A program made the position numbers and the translations under genes. Below are positions 1 to 12,349 of a DNA stretch of 64,000 nucleotides, one piece after another. The DNA is from Methylophilales bacterium HTCC2181 (GTDB lineage: Bacteria > Pseudomonadota > Gammaproteobacteria > Burkholderiales > Methylophilaceae), in contig AAUX01000001.1 of the NCBI GenBank assembly GCA_000168995.1, positions 806,001 to 870,000 of the forward strand. Direction: 5' to 3'. The number at the start of each line of letters is the position of its first letter. The first letter of the stretch is position 1. Below the pieces are notes generated by a model. That model was not told the DNA's origin. It searched no databases and was given only the letters and a program-made list of their open reading frames with translations.

Positions 1-251
1 TGTAACATAAGCTCACGACTCATCTCTTTTTTCCTACATCCATCTTCTAGATCGAAGATTAATGTATGTGCCTCTGTCGTATAGGCGTGTTTTTTCATAC
101 GCAAAGATGCCGCTTCTATACTTTCATAAACCCCAGAGGAAGGAGAGTATTTTACGGGAGGATAATAAAGCTGAATACCAGGCCATAAATCTCCTAGCAA
201 ATCGACATTTAGAGTGTTTATAGTGCTATTCAGAGCATCTTCTTTTTTCAT
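1..251 (-). CDS. CitE/HpcH-family CoA-ester lyase-like protein, N-terminal part (cut by window edge)
   Basis: The reading frame is open from an ATG at 251 to the window edge, about 83 codons. The ATG shares a base with the sdhE stop (TAATG), which points to translational coupling as the last visible gene of the gntR-maeB-sdh operon. The segment LIFDLEDGC near residue 65 matches the D-L-E-D loop of the citrate lyase beta / HpcH aldolase superfamily. The C-terminal metal-binding Glu and Asp lie outside the window, so the substrate cannot be judged. Many betaproteobacteria have gltA after sdhE; here the visible residues fit a lyase better than citrate synthase. It is the third CitE-type protein of this locus. 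Confidence 0.6.
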   Translation of the reverse strand, partial: MKKEDALNSTINTLNVDLLGDLWPGIQLYYPPVKYSPSSGVYESIEAASLRMKKHAYTTEAHTLIFDLEDGCRKKEMSRELML

Positions 252-517
252 TATCTTTTCCTGGACTGTTGAAGTGCGTTTGCATTAAAACTCTCTATTT
301 TTAAAACGATTTTTTTATGTGCTGCTAAGGGGTTAGTTTTTTTTTGCAGTATATCGAGCATAGTCATATCGTCTATCATTAAAAATTCGAGTAGCCTTTT
401 TTTATCATCTACACCCATCATAGAGGAGCCTTTATTAATAAATCCGGATAAAAACAAGTCGAGCTCCAGCAGCCCCCTTCTCGATCGATGCTTTATTTCT
501 TTATCAATGTTTGTCAT
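251..517 (-). CDS. sdhE: SdhE, FAD assembly factor for succinate dehydrogenase
   Basis: An 88-residue protein of the SdhE/DUF339 family, which promotes covalent FAD attachment to SdhA. The family's RGxxE motif is visible as RRGLLELD near residues 13-20, and the length is typical. Its start overlaps the end of sdhB by 14 bases and its stop overlaps the next gene by one base, so it is made with the SDH operon. It is a cytoplasmic assembly factor, not part of the mature complex. Confidence 0.9.
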   Translation of the reverse strand: MTNIDKEIKHRSRRGLLELDLFLSGFINKGSSMMGVDDKKRLLEFLMIDDMTMLDILQKKTNPLAAHKKIVLKIESFNANALQQSRKR

Positions 518-1253
518 GTTTTATAGTAAAAATTTTCTTAGTTTTTTTAGTGAATGTTGCCTTCTTTGCTTTAATTTGCATTTGCTTAATCCCTGTAATA
601 GCTTTTGATGGGTTTAGCCCTTTAGGACAAACATCAGCACAATTCATAATATTATGACATCGGTATAAACGATCAGGATCATCCAGATCAACTAAGCGCT
701 CTTCGCTGCCGTCATCTCTTGAATCAGCAAGGAATCGATAGGCCTGGAGTAATCCAGCAGGACCAACAAATTTATCAGGACTCCACCAGAATGATGGGCA
801 GGACGTAGTGCATGCCCCACACAAAATACACTCATAAAGGCCGTCCAATTTTTTTCTGTCTTCAGGGCTTTGTAATCTCTCTTTTTTGGGTGGATCCTCA
901 CTATTGATAAGAAAAGGTTTTACTGAATTGTATTGTTTAAAAAATTGATCCATATTGACAACCAGGTCACGAATTACTGGCAGACCAGGCATAGGTCTGA
1001 TAACTACCGGCTGTTTTAAATCACTTATTTTAGTAACACATGCCAGTCCGTTCTTTCCATTAATGTTCATTGAGTCAGATCCACATACCCCTTCTCTACA
1101 AGACATTCGCATAGACAAAGAATCATCAGTAGATTTAATTTTAATAAGCAGATCTAGTAACATGACATCCTTGTGAGTAACCTCGACATCGTAACTCTGC
1201 ATATAAGGTTTTTTATCTTTATCCGGATCAAATCGATAAATAGATATTTTCAT
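504..1253 (-). CDS. sdhB: Succinate dehydrogenase iron-sulfur subunit
   Basis: A 249-residue electron-transfer subunit of complex II, carrying electrons from SdhA FAD to quinone. The [2Fe-2S] ligands are C52, C57 and C72, with Asp at the third CREGVCGSD position, as in E. coli SdhB. The [4Fe-4S]/[3Fe-4S] Cys sets are C142/C145/C148 with C152, and C199/C205/C209. It follows sdhA after 9 bases and overlaps sdhE. All cluster ligands are present, so the subunit should be functional. In this locus it oxidises the succinate released by the methylcitrate cycle. Confidence 0.95.
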   Translation of the reverse strand: MKISIYRFDPDKDKKPYMQSYDVEVTHKDVMLLDLLIKIKSTDDSLSMRMSCREGVCGSDSMNINGKNGLACVTKISDLKQPVVIRPMPGLPVIRDLVVNMDQFFKQYNSVKPFLINSEDPPKKERLQSPEDRKKLDGLYECILCGACTTSCPSFWWSPDKFVGPAGLLQAYRFLADSRDDGSEERLVDLDDPDRLYRCHNIMNCADVCPKGLNPSKAITGIKQMQIKAKKATFTKKTKKIFTIKHDKH

Positions 1254-1262
1254 AGCTTTCTC

Positions 1263-3011
1263 CTAGTACACACGTTCTTTTAGTGGAAACGAGTCGACGG
1301 TTAGTGGATGTAAATTCACCGGTCGATATGTAATGCTCTTATCTAAGGGGTTGTAGACCGTGTGTTTTAACCATCCATCATCATCCCTCTTAGGATAGTC
1401 GGATCGCGAATGTGACCCCCTACTTTCTTTCCGATTGCTGGCGGAGATAATGGTAGCTTCTGCAACTTCAATGAGATTTTTAACTTCTAATGCTTCAATA
1501 CGCGCAGTATTAAATATTTTTGATGTATCACTTATTGAAAGATTATCCACACGTACTCTAAGGTCCTTGATCTTCTTAACGCCCTCCTCCATAAGCTCTG
1601 GAAATCGGAAAACACCGCAATGTTCCTGCATGACTTTTCTTATCTCATTGCCCACTGCGCGTGGGTCTTCTCCACTTTGTCCTTGCTCAAGAAGTGACAA
1701 CCTTTCAATGGTTATATCACTAGCATTGCTGGGGAGTTTTTTTAATGGGTTATTTTTGCATCGATTAATTACATCAATACCGGCCGCTCTTCCAAAAACA
1801 ATGAGGTCTAATAGTGAGTTAGACCCAAGGCGATTTGCACCGTGAACTGATACACAAGCACACTCACCAACTGCGTAAAATCCTTCAACCACATTCCCAT
1901 GGGTAGTGTCTCTTACTTGGCCGTTCATTGTTGTGGGTATACCACCCATCATATAATGCACAGTAGGGACTACTGGAATAGGATCTTTTACCGGATCGAC
2001 ATTAGCAAACTTGATGGAGGTTTCACGAATCCCTGGCAATTTTTCATCAATTAATTCTTCTCCCAGATGAGATAGCTCTAAATAAACTCCGTCTTTATTT
2101 TCTCCTATACCCCTGCCTTCTTTTACTTCAGTGGCAATAGCTCGTGAGACGACATCCCGACTTGCTAAATCTTTAACATTTGGAGCATATTTTTCCATAA
2201 ATCTTTCACCGAGCGCATTCACTAAATACCCACCCTCACCTCTTACGCCTTCGGTAATCAAGACTCCTGCATTTAATATACCGGTAGGATGAAATTGCCA
2301 AAACTCCATATCTTCCAAAGATATCCCTGCTCTCGCCGCCATACCCAAGCCATCACCTGTGTTGATATAGGCATTGGTGCTAGCCTCAAATATTCTTCCT
2401 GCACCACCGGTAGCGAATACCGTACTTTTGGCATGGAAAATTACCAACTCACCTGATTGCATTTCGATTGCAATAACACCCAGTACAGCCCCTTCCTCAT
2501 CACGAATTAGATCAAGGCACACCCACTCAATAAAGAATTCCGTATTAAGCTCGATATTTTTTTGATAAAGCGTATGAAGCATAGCGTGACCAGTTCGATC
2601 TGCAACTGAGCAAGTTCTTGAGATTGAAGATTCACCAAAGTTTTTAGTCATGCCACCAAAAGGCCTCTGATAAATTCGACCATCATCATTTCTATCGAAA
2701 GGCATACCCATATGTTCTAGTTCATAAATGGCTTCTGCTGCATTTTTACACATATACTCAATGGCATCTTGATCTCCTAAGTAGTCAGAACCTTTAATGG
2801 TGTCGTACATATGCCATATCCACTTATCTTCAGAAATATTTGCTAGTGCAGCGGCAATACCACCTTGCGCAGCAACAGTATGGGATCTAGTAGGAAAAAC
2901 TTTAGAAATGACTGCAACTTTCAGCCCATCATTTGCTAACTGCATGGAGGTTCTAAGCCCAGCCCCGCCACTGCCCACAATAATTGCATCAAAGGTGTAA
3001 CGCTTAATCAT
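1263..3011 (-). CDS. sdhA: Succinate dehydrogenase flavoprotein subunit
   Basis: Catalytic subunit, 582 residues from the ATG at 3011; the frame also opens at a TTG at 3023, but the ATG is preferred. The Rossmann FAD motif (VGSGGAG) lies near residues 12-18, followed by the SHTVAAQGG segment whose His covalently binds FAD. The substrate-site motif HPTG and the R-G-E-G-G segment are present in mid-protein. The start overlaps the sdhD stop by 8 bases. Length and motifs are those of proteobacterial SdhA. It oxidises succinate to fumarate at the inner face of the cytoplasmic membrane. Confidence 0.95.
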
Positions 3012-3360
3012 AGCTATATCCAATTAAAAAGTAGGTAAGGTAAATCAATTCAATAACCATGGTAATAAATAAGAATCCATTGATAGTGGTCCGGACTGCG
3101 ATGACTTTTATATAATCTTCAGTGATATGCAAAATTCCTATCCATGCATGGAAAAACATCAGAATGAAAAATACTAGAGTGGCATATTTGATAGTCCAAT
3201 GATCAAATAAGGAGGCCCATACATCAAAAGTTAAAGGTCTGTAGGTGGTTAAAATTAAAGCAAGGCTTATCATGTAAGTAGTCATAAATAATGCCGTAAA
3301 TCGCTGATATAACCACTGGGTCATGCCGCCAAACGGACTTTTTAGACTTTTGGCATTCAT
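3004..3360 (-). CDS. sdhD: Succinate dehydrogenase membrane anchor subunit D
   Basis: A 118-residue protein with three predicted membrane helices (about residues 22-40, 57-78 and 90-113). The [14 protein letters not shown] segment carries the haem-ligand His and the DY motif typical of SdhD. It starts 4 bases inside the sdhC end and ends inside the sdhA start. With SdhC it anchors the SdhAB dimer, binds haem b and forms the quinone site. Confidence 0.9.
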
Positions 3361-3728
3361 AATAAATAAATCACCAACAATGTGCCCATAACACTCGACA
3401 CTAAAACAGACTTACTGCTTAAACTTGCCACAATCAAATCATTTCCAATTTGCATGTCTAAAAGCAAATGCCTGAATCCAGCAATAAGATGATGGATGAA
3501 CCCCCAAACCATAAGATAAAGGATCAAGACAAGTGGAAATGAAAATAATTGCGAGATAGTTCGCTCGTAAAATGATACTGAGGTGAGCGAGTTACAAAAG
3601 GCGACGACCAGAAATGGCATAAAAATAAATAACACTGCCCCACTCATTCGATGAAGTATCGATACGAGTGCTGGCATAGGAAGCCTGATAGTAAAAAGAT
3701 TTAAATTTTTAGTAATTTTTTTAGGCAT
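3357..3728 (-). CDS. sdhC: Succinate dehydrogenase cytochrome b556 subunit
   Basis: A 123-residue membrane protein with three predicted helices. The SILHRMSGAVLF segment near residues 23-34 (the SdhC H-R-x-S/T-G signature) and the HHLIAGFRHLLLD segment with the haem-binding His are visible. Its ATG directly abuts the TAG stop of the malic enzyme gene, so it lies in one operon with the regulator and malic enzyme upstream. It forms the membrane anchor with SdhD. Confidence 0.92.
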   Translation of the reverse strand: MPKKITKNLNLFTIRLPMPALVSILHRMSGAVLFIFMPFLVVAFCNSLTSVSFYERTISQLFSFPLVLILYLMVWGFIHHLIAGFRHLLLDMQIGNDLIVASLSSKSVLVSSVMGTLLVIYLL

Positions 3729-4913
3729 CTAATACGCCTCCTTAACAGCCGTGGCTACCCACTCAATAAGTCGCGGATCGAAAGGCTTAGGGATAAGATA
3801 GTCGCGGCCAAATTCCATTGAATTGGTTTTGTAGGCATCTAAAACCGACGGTGGAACCGGTTCTTTAGCTAGCTTCGCTAAGGCAAATGACGCTGCCAGT
3901 AACATATCATTTGTTATTTCGGTAGCCTGTGCATCAAGCGCACCCCGAAACAAAAAGGGAAACCCTAAGACATTATTTACTTGGTTGGGGAAATCTGATC
4001 TTCCTGTTGCCATGACAATATCATCCCTAATTGCATGGGCCTTGGATGGAAGAATTTCTGGGTCTGGGTTGGCAAGGGCAAAAATAATTGGATTCTTTGC
4101 CATTAGCTTAACGTGGTCTTCATCCAGTAAGTTGGCCCCTGATACCCCAATAAACACATCCGAATTTTCCATGGCATCAGACAATAATCTACCTTTAGTT
4201 TCAACTGCAAGATCTTGATTATATTGATTTAAATCTTTTCTATTTGTGTGTAAAACCCCTTTCCTATCAACCATGGTAATATGCTTTGCCCCCATAAGCT
4301 TCAACAGCCTTGCACAAGAGCAACCTGCTGCACCAGCCCCTAAAAAGACGATCCGGACTTCATGGATATTTTTATGCTGTATTTCCATGGCATTTGTTAG
4401 TGCCGCAGCAACAATTACGGCTGTTCCGTGTTGATCATCATGAAAGACTGGGATACTTAAACGCTTTTTTAACTCATTTTCAATATAAAAACAGTTAGGA
4501 GCGGCTATGTCTTCTAAATTAATTCCTCCGAATGTTGGGGCAATGTTGACCACGGTTTGAATAAATTCGTCCGGATCATCACAGTCAATCTCAATGTCAT
4601 ACACATCGATGCCTGCAAATTTTTTAAACAACACGGCTTTTCCTTCCATAACTGGCTTAGAGGCTAATGCCCCCACATTACCCAACCCTAAAACAGCGCT
4701 GCCGTTTGAAATAACGGCAACCAAATTACCTTTATTGGTGTAGCGGTAGGCATTAATGGGGTTGTCGGCAATCTCCATAACCGGCACAGCGACCCCAGGG
4801 CTATAAGCTAATGACAGGTCATCAGCTGTATCGCATGCCTTTGATGACTCTACGCTGAGCTTACCAGGCCTTGGAAACTCATGATAATCCAATGCTTTTT
4901 TCTTAATGTCCAT
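3729..4913 (-). CDS. maeB: NADP-type malic enzyme, short form without PTA domain
   Basis: Oxidative decarboxylation of malate to pyruvate and CO2. The 394-residue protein has the malic-enzyme N-domain (YSPGVAVP near 37; the KA/VLFKKFAGID catalytic region near 93-103; DDQHGTA near 160) and a C-terminal NAD(P) Rossmann fold (GAGAAG near 193). MaeB proteins of E. coli type are about 750 residues because of a phosphotransacetylase-like C-terminal domain; that domain is absent here. The ATG at 4913 overlaps the gntR stop (TGATG). Next to SDH, it would turn fumarate-derived malate into pyruvate. Confidence 0.85.
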   Translation of the reverse strand: MDIKKKALDYHEFPRPGKLSVESSKACDTADDLSLAYSPGVAVPVMEIADNPINAYRYTNKGNLVAVISNGSAVLGLGNVGALASKPVMEGKAVLFKKFAGIDVYDIEIDCDDPDEFIQTVVNIAPTFGGINLEDIAAPNCFYIENELKKRLSIPVFHDDQHGTAVIVAAALTNAMEIQHKNIHEVRIVFLGAGAAGCSCARLLKLMGAKHITMVDRKGVLHTNRKDLNQYNQDLAVETKGRLLSDAMENSDVFIGVSGANLLDEDHVKLMAKNPIIFALANPDPEILPSKAHAIRDDIVMATGRSDFPNQVNNVLGFPFLFRGALDAQATEITNDMLLAASFALAKLAKEPVPPSVLDAYKTNSMEFGRDYLIPKPFDPRLIEWVATAVKEAY

Positions 4914-5620
4914 CACTCTAACTCAGTTGCGTAATGATGATTTTCAGTGAGGCAAAGACCTAGTCGCCATTCAATAGCCTTATTGTCATAAGTAAATGAC
5001 GTACGTTCCACGCTCAATATAGGTGAATCTAGTGAGACCCCTAGCAATTCTGCAGCTTCCGCACTTGCTGTTACTGCTCTAATCTTCTCTTTAGCATGAA
5101 GCATTTGTATGCCAAAGTCGGTTTCGTACATACGATACATAGAGCCTTTTTTTTCGATGACTTTTTCTGGGGTTAGTCCACGAAAAGAAGCAGCAGGCAC
5201 TTTGATCAAATCCAATATTAATGGTTTTTCGTTAAATGTTAGAACGCGTTTAATAGAAACCACGGTTGAGGCATTATTAATACCGAGTATTTTAGCTAGC
5301 CCATTGCTAGCTTTCTCTTTTTCAAAAGTGATCAGCTTGTTATCAAGCTTTTCTTTGTCCCCTAGGCTGGATGTAAGCCTAAGAAAACGAAGTTGATTAT
5401 GTTCTTCATTATGGCTAGCAACAAACGTTCCCTTACCTTGCCTTCGTATTAATATTTTTTCTGCTGCCAGCTCGTCTATTGCTTTCCTTACCGTACCTTG
5501 GCTAACATTATAAGACTGGGCTAATTCAATTTCACTGGGAATAGAATGCCCAGGATGCCATAAGCCTCCAACCAAGCTCTCAGTAATTCTTTTTTTAATT
5601 TGTATGTATAACGGATTCAT
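4913..5620 (-). CDS. GntR-family (HutC/UTRA type) transcriptional regulator
   Basis: A 235-residue regulator. It has an N-terminal winged helix-turn-helix (about residues 5-68; IPSEIELAQ, VSQGTVRKAID, RRQGKGTFV) and a C-terminal UTRA ligand-binding domain of the HutC subfamily. A strong ribosome site (AAAGGAGAA) precedes the ATG at 5620. It is the first gene of the leftward operon and diverges from the CitE-mch-prp operon, so it most likely controls both arms through the two palindromes in the 276-base spacer, and itself. The effector is unknown; a methylcitrate-cycle or TCA intermediate is a reasonable guess. Confidence 0.88.
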   Translation of the reverse strand: MNPLYIQIKKRITESLVGGLWHPGHSIPSEIELAQSYNVSQGTVRKAIDELAAEKILIRRQGKGTFVASHNEEHNQLRFLRLTSSLGDKEKLDNKLITFEKEKASNGLAKILGINNASTVVSIKRVLTFNEKPLILDLIKVPAASFRGLTPEKVIEKKGSMYRMYETDFGIQMLHAKEKIRAVTASAEAAELLGVSLDSPILSVERTSFTYDNKAIEWRLGLCLTENHHYATELE

Positions 5621-5668
5621 TCAACCCATTCTCCTTTAAAAAGATAAACCATTTATTAACTCTTCTAT

Positions 5669-5697
5669 ATCTTATATAAGAGTTAAAAATAAATCAA
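5669..5697 (-). promoter_or_regulatory. Predicted sigma70 promoter for gntR-maeB-sdh operon
   Basis: On the minus strand, TTGATT (5697-5692) and TAAGAT (5674-5669) are separated by 17 bases. The -10 and part of the spacer are covered by the palindrome at 5670-5681, the expected layout for autorepression. Read by eye against the consensus. Confidence 0.5.
5670..5681. promoter_or_regulatory. Candidate GntR operator, site 1
   Basis: Perfect 12-base palindrome TCTTATATAAGA, followed by GT. Site 2 read on the other strand matches at 14 of 15 flanking positions (ATCTTATATAAGAGT versus GTCTTATATAAGAGT). It overlaps the predicted -10 of the leftward operon. Confidence 0.65.
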
Positions 5698-5802
5698 CAC
5701 CTTTTTTTATATTATTATTGATGTTAATTAAATTATTAAGTTACTGTTATTTATGAATTTATTTATAATATTTATTTATTTTTACACTGTTTTATTTTTT
5801 AC

Positions 5803-5814
5803 TCTTATATAAGA
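5803..5814. promoter_or_regulatory. Candidate GntR operator, site 2
   Basis: Second copy of the TCTTATATAAGA palindrome, 133 bases from site 1 in opposite orientation of the flanks. It ends 13 bases before the -35 hexamer of the rightward promoter. A position upstream of -35 could serve activation or looping with site 1. Confidence 0.65.
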
Positions 5815-5827
5815 CTTAATAAATTAA

Positions 5828-5857
5828 TTGACATATATTTACTATATGAATTAGAAT
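5828..5857 (+). promoter_or_regulatory. Predicted sigma70 promoter for CitE-mch-prp operon
   Basis: TTGACA at 5828-5833 (perfect -35) and TAGAAT at 5852-5857 (one mismatch to TATAAT), spacing 18. Transcription would start near 5864, about 33 bases before the first ATG. Confidence 0.6.
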
Positions 5858-5896
5858 CTAGGTTAATTAAAACTTTATTCAATAAAAATTATAAAA

Positions 5897-6778
5897 ATGA
5901 CCAAATTAAATACATTACGACCCAGACGTTCGATGCTGTATGTCCCAGGGTGTAATAGACGCTATCTCGAAAAAGCGAAACACCTTAGGGTTGATTCAGT
6001 TATTCTAGACCTTGGAGACCCTATTCTTTTGGAAGCCAAAGAACAGTCACGTACAAACGTAGTTGAGTTTCTTTCGGCTAAGGGCTATGGAAAGAAAGAA
6101 GTGGTTGTCCGTGTAAATGATTTGGACTCTCCATGGGGAAGAGATGATATCAAAGCTGTAGCTGGACTTCAGCCCGACGCCGTCTTATTTCCCAATATTG
6201 AATCGAAAGCCGATGTCATCGAAGCCATCACTGAGCTTGATAAAGCCGGCGGTAGTGAAGTTCCAGTAATGGTGATGATTGAAAGCCCTTTGGCAGTTTT
6301 GCATGCAGAAGAGATTGCAAGCGCCTCAGAAAGAATAGTCTGTATTGTTATGGCAACCTCAGACCTTTTATCACAAATGGCAGCTAGAGTAACCCATGAG
6401 CGCACAGCGCTTCTAACGTCGTTATCACTCGTAATCTTGGCAGCGAGGGCCTATAACCGCGGTGTGGTTGACGGTATACATAGCAAATTAAATGATACTA
6501 ATGCGTTTGAATATGCTTGTCGTATGGGAAGGGATATGGGTTTTGATGGTAAATCGTTAGTGCATCCCGATCAGCTCCCTTATGCAAACGATGCTTACAC
6601 CCCAAAAAACTCTGAAATTGGCCATGCGGAAGAAGTTATCAAGGGGCTCAAAGAGGCTAATGCATCAGGAAGGGGAACGGTTGTTGTTAACGAACGGCTA
6701 ATTGAACATCATCATGTTAACGCGGCAAAAAGACTGCTTATGTTAAGAGATGCTATTGTGGAGCTTGAAAATGAGTAA
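5897..6778 (+). CDS. CitE/malyl-CoA lyase-like protein (HpcH/HpaI superfamily)
   Basis: A 293-residue TIM-barrel lyase of the CitE/Mcl superfamily. Such enzymes cleave or hydrolyse malyl-CoA, beta-methylmalyl-CoA or citramalyl-CoA. RSMLYVPGCN at the N-terminus, VMIESPLA (metal-ligand Glu) and ATSDL (metal-ligand Asp region) are visible. The usual DLED loop reads DLGDP here, with Gly for Glu, which may alter activity. Its stop overlaps the next gene, a mesaconyl-CoA hydratase, which suggests beta-methylmalyl-CoA as substrate (to glyoxylate and propionyl-CoA). A malyl-CoA thioesterase or citramalyl-CoA lyase cannot be excluded. No clear Shine-Dalgarno site precedes the ATG. Confidence 0.75.
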   Translation: MTKLNTLRPRRSMLYVPGCNRRYLEKAKHLRVDSVILDLGDPILLEAKEQSRTNVVEFLSAKGYGKKEVVVRVNDLDSPWGRDDIKAVAGLQPDAVLFPNIESKADVIEAITELDKAGGSEVPVMVMIESPLAVLHAEEIASASERIVCIVMATSDLLSQMAARVTHERTALLTSLSLVILAARAYNRGVVDGIHSKLNDTNAFEYACRMGRDMGFDGKSLVHPDQLPYANDAYTPKNSEIGHAEEVIKGLKEANASGRGTVVVNERLIEHHHVNAAKRLLMLRDAIVELENE

Positions 6779-7826
6779 AAGTAATTACTTGGAAGACTTT
6801 GCTGTTGGGCAAAAAATTGTCCATGCCATACCAAGAACGATTAGTGAGGGAGATGCCTCACTATATATTGCGCTTACCGGGGATAGAAGGCCATTATTTT
6901 GCTCTGAGACTTTCGCCTCGCATCTAGGTTATAAAGAAATTCCAATCAATGATATGTTAGTTTTTCATATAGCATTTGGAAGAACTGTCCAGGATATTTC
7001 ACTTAATGCCATCGCTAATTTAGGTTACGCTGACGTGAGGTTTACAAGCTCGGTCTTTTTGGGGGACACCCTCAGAAGCGAATCAACCGTAATAGGAATA
7101 AAAGAAAATTCAAATAAAAAAAATGGGATTGTATATGTGTACTCAAGTGTCTACAACCAACATAACGAGCAAGTTCTGTCATGGCAGCGATGGGTTATGC
7201 TTCCAAAAAAAAATAACGAAGCGCTTGTTCCCACGACCCATATACCTGAGATAAAAGACCATGTTGATCCTAAAAATATATCCATTCCCAGCTACCTAAA
7301 TGCTAGAAACTTTGATATTGCTTCAACTGGTTCAGATAAGTTATGGGGAGATTATCTTGTAGGGCAAACCATTGATCATAGCCATGGGTTAACTGTGGAT
7401 GAAACAGCGCACACCATGGCCACACATCTCTATCAAAATAATGCTCGCCTTCATTTTGACGAACATTTAATGGAGAAAACAGCCTTTAAAAAACGTTTGG
7501 TATACGGCGGGCATATCATTTCCTTGTGTCATGCCATAAACTTTCAAGGCATGGAGAATGCACTCAATATTGTTGCTATTAATAGTGGAGTGCACAGCAA
7601 CCCTACTTTTGCCGGAGATACTATCTATGCGAAAACCGTTGTTTTGGAAAAGCATAAAGTTGAGGGAAGGTCAGATCTCGGCTTATTAAGGCTTCGTCTG
7701 ATTGGAATAAAAAATCTAGAGCCCTCCTCTCTTCATTCAATAATGCAAGAAGATGCTCCTAAGATTTACCACAAGAATGTGGTGCTTGATATCGACTATA
7801 CCGTAACAATACCCAGAGGAAATTAA
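6771..7826 (+). CDS. mch: Mesaconyl-CoA hydratase-like protein (double MaoC hotdog)
   Basis: Starting at the ATG at 6771, which overlaps the upstream stop (ATGAGTAA), the protein has 351 residues. It has two MaoC-like hotdog repeats (about 5-150 and 175-350). Segments such as HAIPRTISEGD, NLGYADVRF, KENSNKKNG, LYQNNARLHF and YGGHIISL resemble, from memory, Rhodobacter mesaconyl-CoA hydratase (about 343 residues). That enzyme interconverts mesaconyl-CoA and beta-methylmalyl-CoA in the ethylmalonyl-CoA pathway. No crotonyl-CoA carboxylase/reductase or methylsuccinyl-CoA dehydrogenase is nearby, so the source of mesaconyl-CoA is open. An itaconyl-CoA hydratase role is less likely given the double-domain length. 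Confidence 0.75.
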   Translation: MSKSNYLEDFAVGQKIVHAIPRTISEGDASLYIALTGDRRPLFCSETFASHLGYKEIPINDMLVFHIAFGRTVQDISLNAIANLGYADVRFTSSVFLGDTLRSESTVIGIKENSNKKNGIVYVYSSVYNQHNEQVLSWQRWVMLPKKNNEALVPTTHIPEIKDHVDPKNISIPSYLNARNFDIASTGSDKLWGDYLVGQTIDHSHGLTVDETAHTMATHLYQNNARLHFDEHLMEKTAFKKRLVYGGHIISLCHAINFQGMENALNIVAINSGVHSNPTFAGDTIYAKTVVLEKHKVEGRSDLGLLRLRLIGIKNLEPSSLHSIMQEDAPKIYHKNVVLDIDYTVTIPRGN

Positions 7827-7827
7827 T

Positions 7828-8826
7828 ATGAATCTAGTCCATCCAAACGACGCATTATTTCAAGGAGAAAAACCTTTTCCAGTCATTCCTGCTTGTGAAC
7901 ATTTTGCAGGAAGCGAAAAATTGATCACCAAGGCATTGAGCTTTCAAGATGATCTGGGGCCAATTTTTGACATCACATGTGACTGCGAAGATGGGGCTGC
8001 AGCAGGCCAGGAAAAAGATCATGCGGAAATGATTGTTCGCGTATTAAGTTCCGATCTAAACAAATATAAAATGGCTGGAGTGCGTATTCATGACTACACC
8101 CATCCCTCTTGGAAGGCAGATGTAGATATTATCGTTAAAGGTATAGGCTCCTTTGTTAGCTATATAACGATTCCTAAATCTACCGATGTAGAACAAGTAG
8201 AAGAAATGGTGACGTACATAAAAAAACAAGCGGTTTTTTATGGGGTAAATCGAATAATACCAATTCATGTGCTTATCGAAACTCATGGCGCCCTCAAGGA
8301 TGTCCATAAGATTGCCGCCATTGAATGGATTCAAGTTCTCGATTTTGGCCTTATGGATTTTGTTAGCGGCCACCATGGCGCAATACCAGCAAGTGCTATG
8401 AGAAGTCCTGGTCAATTCGATCATCACTTGTTATCAAGAGCCAAAGCTGAGTTAGTTGCTGCAGCAATAGGTCACGGCATTGTTCCAGCACATAACGTTA
8501 CTCTCGATTTAAAGAATACTGAAACCACTCATGGTGATGCTAAAAGAGCAAGAAATGAGTTTGGTTTTATGAGAATGTGGAGCATTTATCCAACACAAAT
8601 TACAGCCATCGTTGATGCAATGAAACCTGATTTTAGTGAAGTATTAGATGGGGCACAAATACTCTTACAGGCTCAAAAAGCCAACTGGGGGCCAATTCAA
8701 TATGACGGTGAGTTACATGACAGAGCAACTTATCGCTATTTTTGGGAAATTCTTCAGGCGGCTAAATTATCTGGGATGGATTTACCTAAAGAAATTGATG
8801 ATACTTTTTTTGAGCCGGTGTCATGA
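7828..8826 (+). CDS. HpcH/HpaI aldolase / citrate lyase family protein, 332 residues
   Basis: Second CitE-superfamily member of the operon, of a longer type often found near aconitase, malate dehydrogenase or methylcitrate genes in betaproteobacteria. The CDCEDGAA loop, LIETHGAL (Glu ligand) and [14 protein letters not shown] are visible, with all acidic ligands intact, unlike the first member. Only one base separates it from mch, and its stop overlaps the prpB start. The substrate is not established; a malyl-CoA, methylmalyl-CoA or citryl/methylcitryl-CoA type ester is plausible. The [11 protein letters not shown] start is supported by the upstream GAGGAA. Confidence 0.75.
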
Positions 8827-9710
8827 AGAATATAAGCACTCCGGGACAGCTATTTAGAGCGGCGATTGCAAAAGAAAAGCCTTTGCAAATTATTGGGGCT
8901 ATTAACGCCTACCATGCAAAGCTGGCTGAAAGTAGCGGCTTTAATGCTATTTATTTATCTGGTGGGGGAGTAGCAGCTGGTTCACTTGGTGTTCCCGATT
9001 TAGGTATTACTACGCTTGAAGATATTTTAATAGATATAAGAAGGATCACTGACGCCTCATCATTGCCCTTACTGGTTGATATCGACACAGGTTTTGGGGG
9101 GGCTTTTAATATTGCACGGACCATAAAATCGGTAGAAAAAGCCGGTGCCGCAGCAGTTCATCTTGAAGACCAGATCCAAGCAAAGCGTTGTGGGCATAGG
9201 CCAAATAAAGCCATTGTGTCGTTAGAGGAAATGACAGATCGGGTAAAGAGTGCTGTAGATGCTAAAAAAGATTCAAATTTTTGCATTATGGCGAGAACAG
9301 ATGCCTTAGCAGTTGAGGGCTTAAATTCAGCTTTAGATAGAGCACATGCCTGTGTTGAAGCTGGTGCAGATATGATTTTCCCTGAGGCCATAAACGACCT
9401 AGAAACTTACAAAATATTTACCGATCAACTTGATGTTCCTGTGTTGGCTAATATTACTGAATTTGGAGCCACTCCCTTATTTACGACAGAAGAGCTTAGA
9501 GATGTCGGTATCTCAATAGTGCTTTATCCATTAAGCCCTTTTAGGGCAATGAACAAAGCCGCATTGAATGTTTACCGAGGTATTCGTGAAGAAGGTACAC
9601 AAAAAAATCTGATCGGACAGATGCAAACTAGAGAAGAGCTCTATGATTTTCTTGATTACCATCACTATGAGCAAAAACTGGATCAACTCTTTCAAAACGA
9701 TAAGAAATAA
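8823..9710 (+). CDS. prpB: 2-methylisocitrate lyase
   Basis: A 295-residue member of the isocitrate lyase/PEP mutase superfamily. It cleaves 2-methylisocitrate to pyruvate and succinate, the last step of the methylcitrate cycle. The catalytic KRCGH segment (near residue 121) and the Mg-binding DIDTGFGG segment are present, and the length is that of PrpB. The ATG overlaps the upstream TGA (ATGA), so it is coupled to the HpcH-like gene, and prpC follows 15 bases later. The succinate released can feed the SDH encoded by the divergent arm. Confidence 0.93.
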
Positions 9711-9725
9711 AAGAGGCATTAATCT

Positions 9726-10868
9726 ATGAACACAGAACCAAAGAAAGTAAAAAAAGGAGTTGCGCTTGCTGGTATCAATGCAGGTACATCATCAATTTGT
9801 ACCGTCGGACACACCGGTAACGACCTCCATTACAGAGGGTATGACATCATTGATTTAGCAGATAAGTGCAGCTTTGAAGAGGTGGCGTATTTGTTAATTT
9901 ATGGCACTCTCCCTAATCAGGTTGAACTGAATCAGTACCAAGAAAAATTAAAGTCATTACGGAGCCTTCCTGAAGAACTCAAAGCTGTTTTAGAAAAAAT
10001 TCCAAAAAGCGCTCATCCTATGGATGTTATGAGGACTGGTTGTTCAATGTTAGGAACGTTAGAGCCAGAATCTATTAGCAGGAATGCCGGTGATGCAAAA
10101 GAATTAGCCAATCGCCTTATATCCTGCTTCAGCTCAATCTTAATCTATTGGTACAAGTTTGCTTTTGAGGGAAAAAGAATTGATGTTGAAACAGAAGATA
10201 CATCTGTGGCGGGACATCTCCTCCACTTGATGCACGAAAAAAAACCGTCAGCCCTCCATGAAAAATCAATGAACATATCATTAATTCTTTATGCTGAGCA
10301 TGAGTTCAACGCCTCAACCTTCACCTCTAGAGTGATTGCAGGCACTCTTTCGGATATGTACTCATCTATTACTGGAGCAATAGGAGCATTAAGGGGCCCA
10401 AAGCACGGGGGAGCGAATGAGGTAGCAATGGAAATTATAGGTCGCTACAAGAGCCCAGAACAAGCTGAGAATGATATAAGGATGCGCATGGCCAATAAGG
10501 AAATCATTATTGGTTTTGGTCACCCGGTGTACACAATAAGTGACCCGCGTAATGAATGCATAAAAAAGGTTTCGTATGAATTATCAAAGGATGCGGGAGA
10601 TATGCACTTATATGCTATTTCTGATCGAATCGAACAAGTAATGTGGGAGGAAAAAAAGATGTTTCCAAACCTTGATTGGTATAGCGCCTCCTCCTATCAT
10701 TTAATGGGAATACCAACCTCCTTATTCACACCACTTTTTGTCATTTCACGAACAACTGGCTGGGCTGCCCATATCATGGAGCAAAGAGTCGACAACAAAA
10801 TCATTCGGCCAAACGCTTTATATAACGGTCCAAGCAACCGCCCTATTCCACCCATCAATCAACGTTAA
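9726..10868 (+). CDS. prpC: 2-methylcitrate synthase
   Basis: A 380-residue citrate-synthase-family enzyme that condenses propionyl-CoA with oxaloacetate. Family signatures are [13 protein letters not shown] (active-site His), [13 protein letters not shown] (second His and substrate Arg) and the [15 protein letters not shown]-terminus. The short length and position between prpB and prpD favour methylcitrate synthase over housekeeping citrate synthase, although side activity with acetyl-CoA is common. A Shine-Dalgarno-like AAAGAGG precedes the start. Confidence 0.92.
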
Positions 10869-10885
10869 TAAATATTGGAAAAACC

Positions 10886-12349
10886 ATGTCCCTGAATGCA
10901 TCACCAACAAAACAAAAGCCTGACCAAGTCATCGTAGATATAGCAGACTACGTTCTCAATTATGAAATAGATAGTAATCATGCATTTGATACAGCCAGAA
11001 ACTGTATGATTGACACCCTGGGATGTGGACTGGAAGCTCTAAGTTACCCTGCTTGTACGAAGCTTCTTGGGCCAACCGTTCCAGGGACAACCGTTCCTAA
11101 CGGATCAAGAATACCTGGAACATCCTATCAATTAGACCCTATTAATGCCGCTTTTAATATTGGTGCAATGGTTCGATGGTTAGACTTTAATGACACGTGG
11201 TTGGCAGCAGAATGGGGACATCCATCGGATAATTTAGGAGGCATTTTAGCTGTTGCAGATTGGATTTCACGAACAAATCAAGCGGAGGGTAAACCGCCCC
11301 TTTTAATTAAGGATGTGCTGGAGGCAATGATCAAAGCCCATGAAATTCAAGGAATACTTGCATTGGAAAATAGCTTTAACCGTGTAGGTCTTGATCACGT
11401 AATTCTTGTAAAGGTTGCTTCTACAGCCGTAATAACAAAAATGCTTGGAGGAAATAAAGAGCAGATCATCGACGCTTTATCGAATGCATGGATTGATGGG
11501 CAAAGCTTAAGGACTTATCGTCATGCACCTAATACAGGCTCCAGGAAATCATGGGCTGCTGGGGATGCGACAAGTCGCGCTGTTAGATTGTCCTTAATGG
11601 TTATGAAGGGAGAAATGGGATACCCTTCTGCTCTTTCTGCTAAAGGCTGGGGTTTTTATGATGTTTTATTTGAAGGAAAAGAATTCCAGTTTCAAAGAGG
11701 TTATGGAAGTTACGTTATGGAAAATATACTGTTTAAAATCTCTTTTCCTGCTGAGTTTCATGCACAAACTGCCGTTGAGTGTGCGTTAACTCTGCATGGA
11801 ACAGAAGTTAGCAGATTGGATACGGTGGATAAAATTGAGTTAATAGAGAAGATTATGATTACCACCCATGAGTCGGCTATAAGAATTATTGATAAAAAAG
11901 GTCCCCTTTCTAATCCAGCTGACCGAGATCATTGCATTCAATACATGTCGGCTATCGGCCTACTTAAAGGGAATTTAACTGCTCAGGATTATGAGAACGA
12001 AACTGCTAGTGACCCTAGAGTAGATAAGCTTCGGAATGTTATGGTGTGCCATGAGAGTGAGCAGTTTAGTAGAGATTATCTTGACCCGGAAAAACGCTCA
12101 ATCGCTAATGCTATCCAGATTTTTTATAAAGACGGCACTGCCTCACCTAAAGTTTCGGTAGAGTACCCTATTGGTCATAAAAGAAGGCGTGATGAAGGTA
12201 TTCCAAAACTCGTGGATAAATTTAAAATCAATCTAGCACGCGAATTTGATACTGGGAAAGCGTCAGTTATTCTTGAATTAAGCATGGATCAATCAAGGTT
12301 GGAGGAAATGCCTGTAAATGACTATGTTGACTTATTCTGGAAAGGATAA
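10886..12349 (+). CDS. prpD: 2-methylcitrate dehydratase
   Basis: A 487-residue MmgE/PrpD-family enzyme that dehydrates 2-methylcitrate to 2-methylaconitate. Signatures include the N-terminal [21 protein letters not shown] and the [11 protein letters not shown] segment. The ATG is 17 bases after prpC. Neither AcnD/PrpF nor an aconitase is encoded nearby, so rehydration to 2-methylisocitrate probably uses AcnB elsewhere. The gene ends 18 bases inside a convergent gene, a sign of tight packing. Confidence 0.93.

Follow-up and report, generated by a model that had tools for sequence, protein, structure and literature searches.

A putative mesaconyl-CoA module adjoining the methylcitrate cycle genes in Methylophilaceae bacteria

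What feeds the methylcitrate cycle of Methylophilaceae? According to one report, the metabolite that this cycle treats in the family 'still remains unknown' (PMC3728764), and a second gives the gene set in print as 'Methylcitric acid cycle genes (prpCBD, cyl1, maoC, cyl2, gntR, mdh, sdhABCD, cyl3, prpE, fum, can)' (PMC4109929). We addressed the question on a 64-kb stretch of the Methylophilales bacterium HTCC2181 genome (hereafter the window; C3:806001-870000 within the 1.30-Mb assembly). This genome is 95% complete and gene absences in it are therefore not absolute. Six open reading frames (ORFs) are open across positions 5897-12349 of the window. They encode a protein of the mesaconyl-coenzyme A (CoA) hydratase type (Mch), two members of the CitE superfamily (CitE1 and CitE2) and three methylcitrate cycle enzymes (PrpB, PrpC and PrpD). 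On balance we favour the view that these genes and the divergently transcribed genes to their left form one regulon, which would couple the methylcitrate cycle to a C5-dicarboxyl-CoA module. The six genes are:

5897..6778, + strand: CitE1 (cyl1-like), 293 amino acids; PF03328 at 150 bits; CitE superfamily, resembling the malyl-CoA thioesterase type
6771..7826, + strand: Mch, 351 amino acids, two MaoC domains; PF19315 above cut-off
7828..8826, + strand: CitE2, 332 amino acids; 497 bits to 3qqw
8823..9710, + strand: PrpB, methylisocitrate lyase; NF008455 at 526.7 bits (cut-off 353)
9726..10868, + strand: PrpC, 2-methylcitrate synthase; NF009006 at 653.4 bits (cut-off 550)
10886..12349, + strand: PrpD, 2-methylcitrate dehydratase; TIGR02330 at 853.4 bits (cut-off 458)

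PrpB, PrpC and PrpD all exceed the cut-offs of curated NCBIfam equivalog models and constitute a methylcitrate cycle set. The Mch ORF opens at 6750; the internal ATG at 6771 was taken as the start, which leaves an 8-nucleotide overlap with the end of citE1. A first-pass annotation had described the hydratase and lyase genes as fused into the methylcitrate operon. The genes do adjoin or overlap each other, but there is no gene fusion. The six-gene stretch itself is real, since its order is kept in 42 of 43 family loci compared (L058-L097, L007, L012 and L013) and is not due to chance; the remaining locus, L062, ends at a contig edge inside prpB.

Judged by its sequence, the MaoC protein is a genuine mesaconyl-CoA hydratase. 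It matches PF19315 ('Mesaconyl-CoA hydratase') at 75.8 bits for a cut-off of 26.5 and contains two PF01575 stretches. Its best solved relative in the PDB sequence set is 4e3e (367 bits, 50.1% identity), which we take to be a Chloroflexus protein, and it matches 8hgn (MeaC, beta-methylmalyl-CoA dehydratase) at 315 bits and 45.6% identity. Eight conserved substrate-site residues have been described for 8hgn (PMC10164722), all of which are retained in the window protein (F71, S79, N85, R142, N226, H231, Y248 and G249). Six of them (S79, N85, R142, N226, H231 and G249) are invariant over the 44 family rows; F71 is present in 39 rows and Y248 in 38. In the tree the window protein shares an ingroup with 4e3e, 8hgn and the Ruegeria Mch, with poor outgroups (one a fragment) and an unsafe root. 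Scores remain below the equivalog cut-offs for itaconyl-CoA hydratase (RipB/Ich, NF038241; 120.5 vs 340 bits) and for haloarchaeal 2-methylfumaryl-CoA hydratase (NF041625; 76.3 vs 560 bits). The nearest named match is from Methylophilales bacterium UBA4017 (83%), and the next ones (53-59%) come from one gammaproteobacterial metagenome-assembled genome and several Methylophilus genomes; on these matches the family genomes compared here are taken to be Methylophilaceae. The double-MaoC protein had been proposed to be of the Mch type rather than an unrelated enoyl-CoA hydratase, and the PF19315 score, the 4e3e and 8hgn matches and the substrate-site residues bear this out.

PF03328 matches fall at three places in the assembly (E up to 0.001), which correspond to citE1, citE2 and a third gene, citE3, at the left edge of the window. 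Residue states were read from alignments that include structurally solved malyl-CoA lyases (50 rows for CitE1, 52 for CitE2 and 40 for CitE3) and are numbered as in the R. sphaeroides malyl-CoA lyase. At the position of the catalytic Asp299, CitE1 has Glu in the window and in 47 rows overall, and Gln in the other three, suggesting that it is probably no C-C lyase. Glu at this position is reported to be confined to the R. sphaeroides malyl-CoA thioesterase group (PMC3832036). The Glu44 position is occupied by Gly in 45 rows (the window copy included), by His in four and by Glu only in the Ruegeria row. Asp45 is kept in 39 rows, and the metal ligands Glu141 and Asp168 in 49 and 46. CitE1 departs in this from the superfamily, for which retention of Glu44 and Asp45 has been stated (1 and 39 of 50 rows). 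The tree partner of CitE1 is the Ruegeria TM1040 'CoA ester lyase' (support 100/99), which has Glu at 299, keeps Glu44 and is encoded near Mch and sdh, two genes from Mch and not adjacent to it. We presume that the R. sphaeroides mcl2 gene likewise lies near mch. CitE1 thus resembles the malyl-CoA thioesterases, and we propose that it may hydrolyse malyl-CoA and/or citramalyl-CoA. It is unlikely that it acts instead as a non-catalytic partner of Mch. The position of citE1 directly 5' of mch in the 43 family loci and in the five module loci described below would suit such a role, as would the loss of Glu44 in 49 rows and the three Gln at 299, but the metal ligands are retained and the Ruegeria homologue, with both Glu299 and Glu44, stands two genes off from its Mch. 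The first-pass annotation had given the cleavage of beta-methylmalyl-CoA to the CitE protein overlapping Mch. This assignment was dropped, the catalytic Asp being replaced: CitE1 is the least likely lyase, and CitE2 the likelier one.

CitE2 carries the full catalytic set in the window copy and in 51-52 of 52 rows (one cut row lacks D42/E44). All 52 rows have the pocket Trp, which the three aligned malyl-CoA lyases share; the pocket Trp and Pro may make pyruvate a poor partner for the lyase (PMC3832036). Its tree partners are the uncharacterised 3qqw and 3r4i (support 100/100), and it scores below the equivalog NF041626 (34.5 vs 500 bits). The catalytic set is also kept in all 40 CitE3 rows. 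These have Gln throughout at the position of the malyl-CoA lyase Trp, a residue shared with CLYBL (5vxc), and RipC (3qll) has Ala there. CitE3 is below the cut-off of the RipC/Ccl citramalyl-CoA lyase equivalog NF038242 (43.5 vs 375 bits) and stands alone on a long branch of the CitE tree, in which long branches make the deeper joins unsafe. The Trp of CitE2 and the Gln of CitE3, set beside the Glu of CitE1, point to glyoxylate, pyruvate and hydrolysis respectively. This suggests that CitE2 is a glyoxylate-type lyase, proposed to act on beta-methylmalyl-CoA and malyl-CoA, and CitE3 a pyruvate-type lyase, proposed for citramalyl-CoA. Assignment of lyases by the residue at position 167 alone was dropped: RipC has Ala there and CLYBL and 1sgj have Glu, which gives no clean sorting into acetyl-CoA and propionyl-CoA enzymes. 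RipC and CLYBL are both taken here to be citramalyl-CoA lyases, RipC forming acetyl-CoA.

The cluster continues on the left of the six genes and runs on beyond the window edge, where citE3, an acyl-CoA ligase gene and a class I fumarase gene are found:

4913..5620, - strand: GntR/UTRA (HutC-type) regulator; PF00392 and PF07702
3729..4916, - strand: malic enzyme, short form; PF00390 and PF03949
3357..3728, - strand: SdhC, named from position and conserved order only
3004..3360, - strand: SdhD, named from position and conserved order only
1263..3023, - strand: SdhA, 52% to the annotated Ruegeria sdhA; conserved order
504..1253, - strand: SdhB, 52% to the annotated Ruegeria iron-sulfur subunit; conserved order
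251..517, - strand: SdhE-type assembly factor; PF03937 (Sdh5) at 40.2 bits (cut-off 27)
1..251, - strand: 5' part of citE3 (whole gene C3:805115-806251), 378-amino-acid protein; PF03328
C3:803478-805118 (outside the window): AMP-forming acyl-CoA ligase, 546 amino acids; PF00501
C3:801973-803478 (outside the window): class I fumarase, 501 amino acids; PF05681/PF05683

In the family the conserved unit comprises 15 genes, fumarase-ligase-CitE3-SdhB-A-D-C-malic enzyme-GntR, divergent from CitE1-Mch-CitE2-PrpB-C-D. This order is complete and exact in 29 of the 43 loci, and a thirtieth (L076) differs by an extra AcsA gene following PrpD. Contig ends or the length of the stretch truncate the remaining 13, some of which also carry insertions (between GntR and CitE1 in L068, L080 and L083) or have no SdhD hit (L095). 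Mch was found in 91 of 150 family genomes and CitE3 in 89. PrpB is listed in 89, of which 87 are above the cut-off, one is cut short (G119) and one is a sub-cut-off match in a genome without Mch (G024). The three genes occur together in 87 genomes and none of them in 59, G024 being left aside (Fisher's p 1e-38, a value that ignores kinship). The exceptions, G061, G121 and G148 without PrpB and G061 and G116 without CitE3, are assemblies 75-84% complete. Three genera (g1, g14 and g15) each include genomes with all three genes and genomes with none, so that the coupling likely reflects more than one old event. The methylcitric acid pathway is described as missing from all 'Ca. Methylopumilus' strains (PMC6794327). 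The locus had also been called unusual for a ribulose monophosphate (RuMP) methylotroph. This does not hold: Mch is present in more than half of the family genomes and the cluster is already in print (PMC4109929).

Some family loci have additional genes. AcsA, identified as such and not as PrpE by curated cut-offs, lies in or beside the cluster in L068, L080 and L076, and L083 has a ligase ORF that is placed as AcsA is in other loci. The insertion of L068 includes a malate:quinone oxidoreductase gene, and an AcnB-matching fragment lies beside the fumarase gene in L076. An aspartate-decarboxylase-like ORF, presumably panD, is present in L068 and L083. Together with the acetate kinase genes of other loci (see below), the AcsA neighbours are a modest hint, from few loci, that acetyl-CoA may be an input.

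Outside the family, the CitE3-ligase-CitE1-Mch-CitE2 module is separable from the prp genes. Across 369 genomes of the class (our own included), Mch was found in 8 and CitE3 in 6, and all five CitE3 genomes other than our own carry Mch in the same cluster. In L111 ligase-CitE3-malic enzyme-GntR is divergent from CitE1-Mch-CitE2-PrpBCD, with no Sdh or fumarase hits. In the other four loci, from three families (L112 and L114; L113; L115), CitE2 is oriented divergently to CitE3-ligase-CitE1-Mch, and the 18-20 kb compared contain no hits to prp or sdh genes. The ligase is therefore tied to Mch and not to propionate. Two of these four module genomes, G210 and G396, encode PrpB at another place. The module is followed by an acetate kinase gene (PF00871) in L114 and, by a matching sequence start, in L112 (both family f87). 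The CitE2 frame of L112 is interrupted (6015-7220 in flipped coordinates) and is whole in its sister L114, which may reflect sequencing error or decay. ORFs adjoining the ligase of L111 (about 2662-5930), which we take to encode a phosphoenolpyruvate synthase-like protein and its regulatory protein, would suit sugar synthesis from pyruvate. Two genomes of family f159 (G306 and G417; loci L116 and L117) have Mch without CitE3 or PrpB, and nearby on the other strand a short MaoC-like ORF with 27% identity to Mch residues 9-146/149.

CitE3 was found only in our own genome among 398 genomes of the phylum, and 98 plasmid records gave no match at 60% or more, the 15 matches listed being at 25-29%. 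At least 14 plasmid records cover 80% of Mch among the best 40 of 341 matches, and 88 records match CitE2 (best 25 listed). Five Mch neighbourhoods (one unannotated) and three further CitE2 neighbourhoods were examined. CitE2 is beside Mch in three of the five (Cupriavidus metallidurans, C. oxalaticus and Sphingobium), and a CoA transferase or racemase gene is near Mch in three (Marinobacter, C. oxalaticus and Sphingobium). On the C. oxalaticus plasmid (L025, 4976-11082), genes for a CoA transferase, an MmgE/PrpD protein and an acyl-CoA dehydrogenase are divergent from Mch-CitE2. The latter two families include the methylsuccinate isomerase and methylsuccinyl-CoA dehydrogenase of the methylsuccinate pathway (PMC12290011). 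By analogy, this set could possibly encode a methylsuccinate route ending in glyoxylate and propionyl-CoA rather than in pyruvate and acetyl-CoA.

The two halves of the cluster in the window are separated by a divergent region with the following features:

5670..5681, no strand assigned: operator-like palindrome TCTTATATAAGA, copy 1 (GntR side)
5803..5814, no strand assigned: operator-like palindrome TCTTATATAAGA, copy 2, just upstream of the promoter-like site
5828..5857, + strand: promoter-like TTGACA-18-TAGAAT of the CitE1 operon, 11/12 consensus matches; weak alone

Apart from these two copies, the 12-base palindrome has no match in the 64-kb window when up to one mismatch is allowed; two or more matches occur in 9 of 100 shuffles. 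Its core CTTATATAAG is found in the divergent region of 39 of the 40 family loci that have both flanking genes, L070 having none; L079, L081 and L082 lack the GntR side and fall outside this count. In 740 kb of family loci the core occurs 48 times, with 45 copies and those of L071 and L089 inside the divergent region; the last copy, that of L080, falls within the GntR frame taken from stop to stop, the GntR start codon being unplaced. The genes inserted in L068 and L083 (AcsA and others) leave one core copy on each half. In the other families, L111 has two copies between GntR and CitE1 and L112-L115 have none. The GntR protein would very likely bind the palindromes. A search for general GT..AC patterns in the divergent region gave nothing consistent. 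The promoter scan of the window yielded 13 sites vs a shuffle mean of 21.5, which is why the promoter-like site is weak alone, and the terminator count was likewise not above shuffles.

These observations are consistent with the following route, in which the genes, their order and co-occurrence, the relationships of Mch and PrpBCD and the CitE residues are observed, and each substrate, the placing of CoA at C1, the flow direction and control by GntR are inferred. The ligase would convert mesaconate to mesaconyl-C1-CoA, Mch would hydrate this to beta-methylmalyl-CoA and CitE2 would split the product into glyoxylate and propionyl-CoA. Conversion by Mch and a lyase to the same two products is part of the ethylmalonyl-CoA (PMC12290011) and methylaspartate (PMC5592240) pathways. 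The enzymes PrpC, PrpD and PrpB, together with an aconitase, would then convert propionyl-CoA and oxaloacetate to pyruvate and succinate, from where succinate would pass on through Sdh, the class I fumarase and malic enzyme. The chemistry suggested by the first-pass annotation, from mesaconyl-CoA through glyoxylate and propionyl-CoA to pyruvate and succinate, matches the gene set. Glyoxylate and acetyl-CoA could yield malate through the lyase and the thioesterase-type CitE1, a pair that constitutes an apparent malate synthase (PMC2948502). The class I fumarase might double as a mesaconase converting citramalate to mesaconate, and CitE3 might join or split citramalyl-CoA (acetyl-CoA and pyruvate). 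With these two steps the cell could make mesaconate itself, in addition to any taken up.

Gene absences in the rest of the genome are in keeping with the route. PF01642 (acyl-CoA, methylmalonyl-CoA and ethylmalonyl-CoA mutases) has no match in our genome and has matches in 8 of 14 control genomes; PF02515 (class III CoA transferases, Mct type) likewise has none, with 5 of 14 controls positive. No match to malate synthase or class II fumarase was found in the genome. The ethylmalonyl-CoA pathway and the 3-hydroxypropionate bi-cycle were dropped as candidates for lack of PF01642 and of PF02515, respectively. The first-pass annotation had reported the upper ethylmalonyl-CoA pathway as not seen, which agrees with the lack of a PF01642 mutase in our genome, Ccr not having been searched for. 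It had also called for a genome search for a CoA transferase: no class III enzyme was found, and the ligase just outside the window is the candidate mesaconate activator.

Several points weigh against the proposed coupling. We know of no activity on record for any of these proteins, and the substrate of the ligase is not predictable from sequence. Co-occurrence inside one family is not phylogenetically independent. No PrpB was found in the module-bearing genomes G233 and G357 (87% complete), so that the tie of the module to the methylcitrate cycle is not universal, and in the three plasmid loci examined for CitE2 no MaoC gene is annotated close to the CitE2 relative. CitE1 has Asn in three rows and Glu in one at the metal ligand Asp168 and, lacking Glu44 in 49 of 50, may be no enzyme at all. 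In malyl-CoA lyases Ala167 makes space for propionyl-CoA; each of the 52 CitE2 rows has Met at this position, which speaks against beta-methylmalyl-CoA as the CitE2 substrate. The Pro of the lyase DGP motif is Val in the same 52 rows, and the C. aurantiacus malyl-CoA lyase carries the Trp yet cleaves citramalyl-CoA, which makes the pocket rule soft.

How far the joined system extends, and in which direction it runs, can be read in several ways. A candidate gene for each step of the citramalate cycle appears to lie in the cluster, with a return through PrpBCD that would need no mutase. It is tentatively possible, although short of probable, that these genes encode the whole of a citramalate-methylcitrate cycle, which would stand in for the glyoxylate shunt and do without isocitrate lyase, malate synthase and B12. 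CitE3 would join acetyl-CoA and pyruvate, CitE1 would hydrolyse the resulting citramalyl-CoA and the fumarase would make mesaconate. Thioesterase and ligase would replace the Mct transferase, placing CoA anew at C1, and PrpBCD would regenerate pyruvate, for a net conversion of acetyl-CoA and oxaloacetate to glyoxylate and succinate; the five-gene module would be the portable core. Rather unlikely, if a serious candidate, is catabolism only, in which the ligase would take external mesaconate or a related C5 acid for Mch and CitE2 to split, nothing would be made from acetyl-CoA and pyruvate, and CitE3 would only make or split malyl-CoA or citramalyl-CoA during breakdown. In its favour, Mch-CitE2 pairs occur on plasmids in apparently catabolic clusters that include CoA transferase or racemase genes, with tripartite tricarboxylate transporter binding proteins in that of C. 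oxalaticus, and methylcitrate cycle genes are expressed more highly on high-molecular-weight dissolved organic matter (DOM) in strain NB0046 (PMC5120137). However, the 15 conserved genes include no transporter, judged by family or conserved neighbours, and a third CitE and a thioesterase-type CitE would not all be needed. The AcsA genes (L068, L080 and L076, with the ORF of L083) and acetate kinase genes (L112 and L114) point, in few loci, to acetate and not to C5 uptake.

A reverse flow, as in the 3-hydroxypropionate bi-cycle, would lead from propionyl-CoA and glyoxylate through beta-methylmalyl-CoA, mesaconyl-CoA and citramalyl-CoA to pyruvate and acetyl-CoA, and would make the module and the methylcitrate cycle parallel routes of propionyl-CoA disposal. 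The lyase and hydratase reactions are reversible (PMC10164722, PMC3832036) and this direction has been discussed for Arcobacter (PMC2147049). We nevertheless hold it to be very unlikely, as our genome has no Mct-type transferase for the C1 to C4 shift of CoA, an ATP-driven ligase and a thioesterase-type protein would push the other way, and a genome of 1.3 Mb that has the full PrpBCD set would have no need of another route. Least probable, and by our estimate highly unlikely, is a plain methylcitrate cycle for propionate, as the published names imply, with the ligase substituting for PrpE and cyl1-3 and maoC as accessory genes. The ligase is labelled 'prpE' in print (PMC4109929) and 88 of the 91 family genomes with Mch have PrpB. 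However, neither PrpE model (TIGR02316, cut-off 827.4, and NF007815, cut-off 955) is among the best 25 of the 106 NCBIfam families matching the ligase, the 25th of which scores 192.8 bits, and its identification as PrpE was rejected. It also accompanies CitE3, CitE1, Mch and CitE2 in four loci with no prp gene in the stretch, and Mch holds eight of eight substrate-site residues.

The coupled system that we favour resembles several known ones. In Arcobacter butzleri a single cluster (ab1917-ab1921) encodes three CitE domains, an acyl-CoA synthetase, an enoyl-CoA hydratase and a class I-like fumarase, and was proposed in 2007 to interconvert glyoxylate and propionyl-CoA with pyruvate and acetyl-CoA beside the methylcitrate cycle (PMC2147049). 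The likeness is by description, not by sequence. There, in contrast, the synthetase and a CitE domain form one fused protein, the methylcitrate cycle is of the AcnD/PrpF type with genes apart (ab0275 vs ab1917) and malyl-CoA hydrolysis is given to ab1069, which is no CitE protein. In the citramalate cycle proposed for Rhodospirillum rubrum, acetyl-CoA and pyruvate pass through citramalate, mesaconate, mesaconyl-CoA and methylmalyl-CoA to glyoxylate and propionyl-CoA (PMC8307300, PMC4682846), but propionyl-CoA returns via succinyl-CoA, by a carboxylase and a mutase (PMC8307300), whereas here the return would be through methylcitrate and no mutase was found. The lower ethylmalonyl-CoA pathway likewise brings together Mch, malyl-CoA lyase and malyl-CoA thioesterase (PMC2948502, PMC3832036), and in Ruegeria TM1040 the CitE1 homologue, Mch and sdh lie close together; unlike in that pathway, our genome has no acyl-CoA mutase and mesaconyl-CoA would come from the ligase. 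The haloarchaeal methylaspartate cycle shares mesaconate activation, Mch, beta-methylmalyl-CoA lyase and the apparent malate synthase, but uses a CoA transferase where a ligase is proposed here, and carboxylates propionyl-CoA (PMC5592240).

Within the Methylophilaceae, the published cluster has the same genes as the one described here, but is assigned there to the methylcitrate cycle, and its 'prpE' is not PrpE by curated models. Transcript levels of the prp genes rise with DOM in the OM43 strain NB0046 (PMC5120137). In the same report, NB46_00665/00666 (HpcH/HpaI aldolase and fatty acid-CoA ligase) have values of 101/104 under nutrient-deplete, 269/341 under replete and 1,055/1,045 under DOM conditions; matched by gene order, these are probably CitE3 and the ligase. 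The word 'mesaconyl' was not found in the available text of the three Methylophilaceae methylcitrate papers checked for it (PMC5120137 and PMC6794327 among them). No earlier link of the Methylophilaceae methylcitrate cycle to mesaconyl-CoA, citramalate or mesaconate was found in the literature searched, mostly outside subscription papers. Mesaconyl-CoA turned up beside the family name in one paper, in an unrelated use, and malyl-CoA lyase in one on Methylobacterium genomes, among 20 of 21 matching papers. A search there for mesaconate ligase and related thioesterase names found only the Arcobacter paper, in the text available (PMC2147049).

The cluster is thus known, its published function is probably incomplete and a precedent exists in another phylum, with Arcobacter. 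A mesaconyl-CoA module would name candidate feeds for the Methylophilaceae methylcitrate cycle, namely mesaconate, citramalate or acetyl-CoA and pyruvate, and the question of what feeds it becomes testable at the bench. Were the complete citramalate-methylcitrate cycle to operate, it would provide B12-free assimilation of acetyl-CoA in aquatic methylotrophs suspected to be obligate, and the citramalate cycle proposed in 1997, still unproven, would gain a gene set. A group of genes filed as a simple propionate pathway could in that way make propionyl-CoA from five-carbon acids inside the cell.

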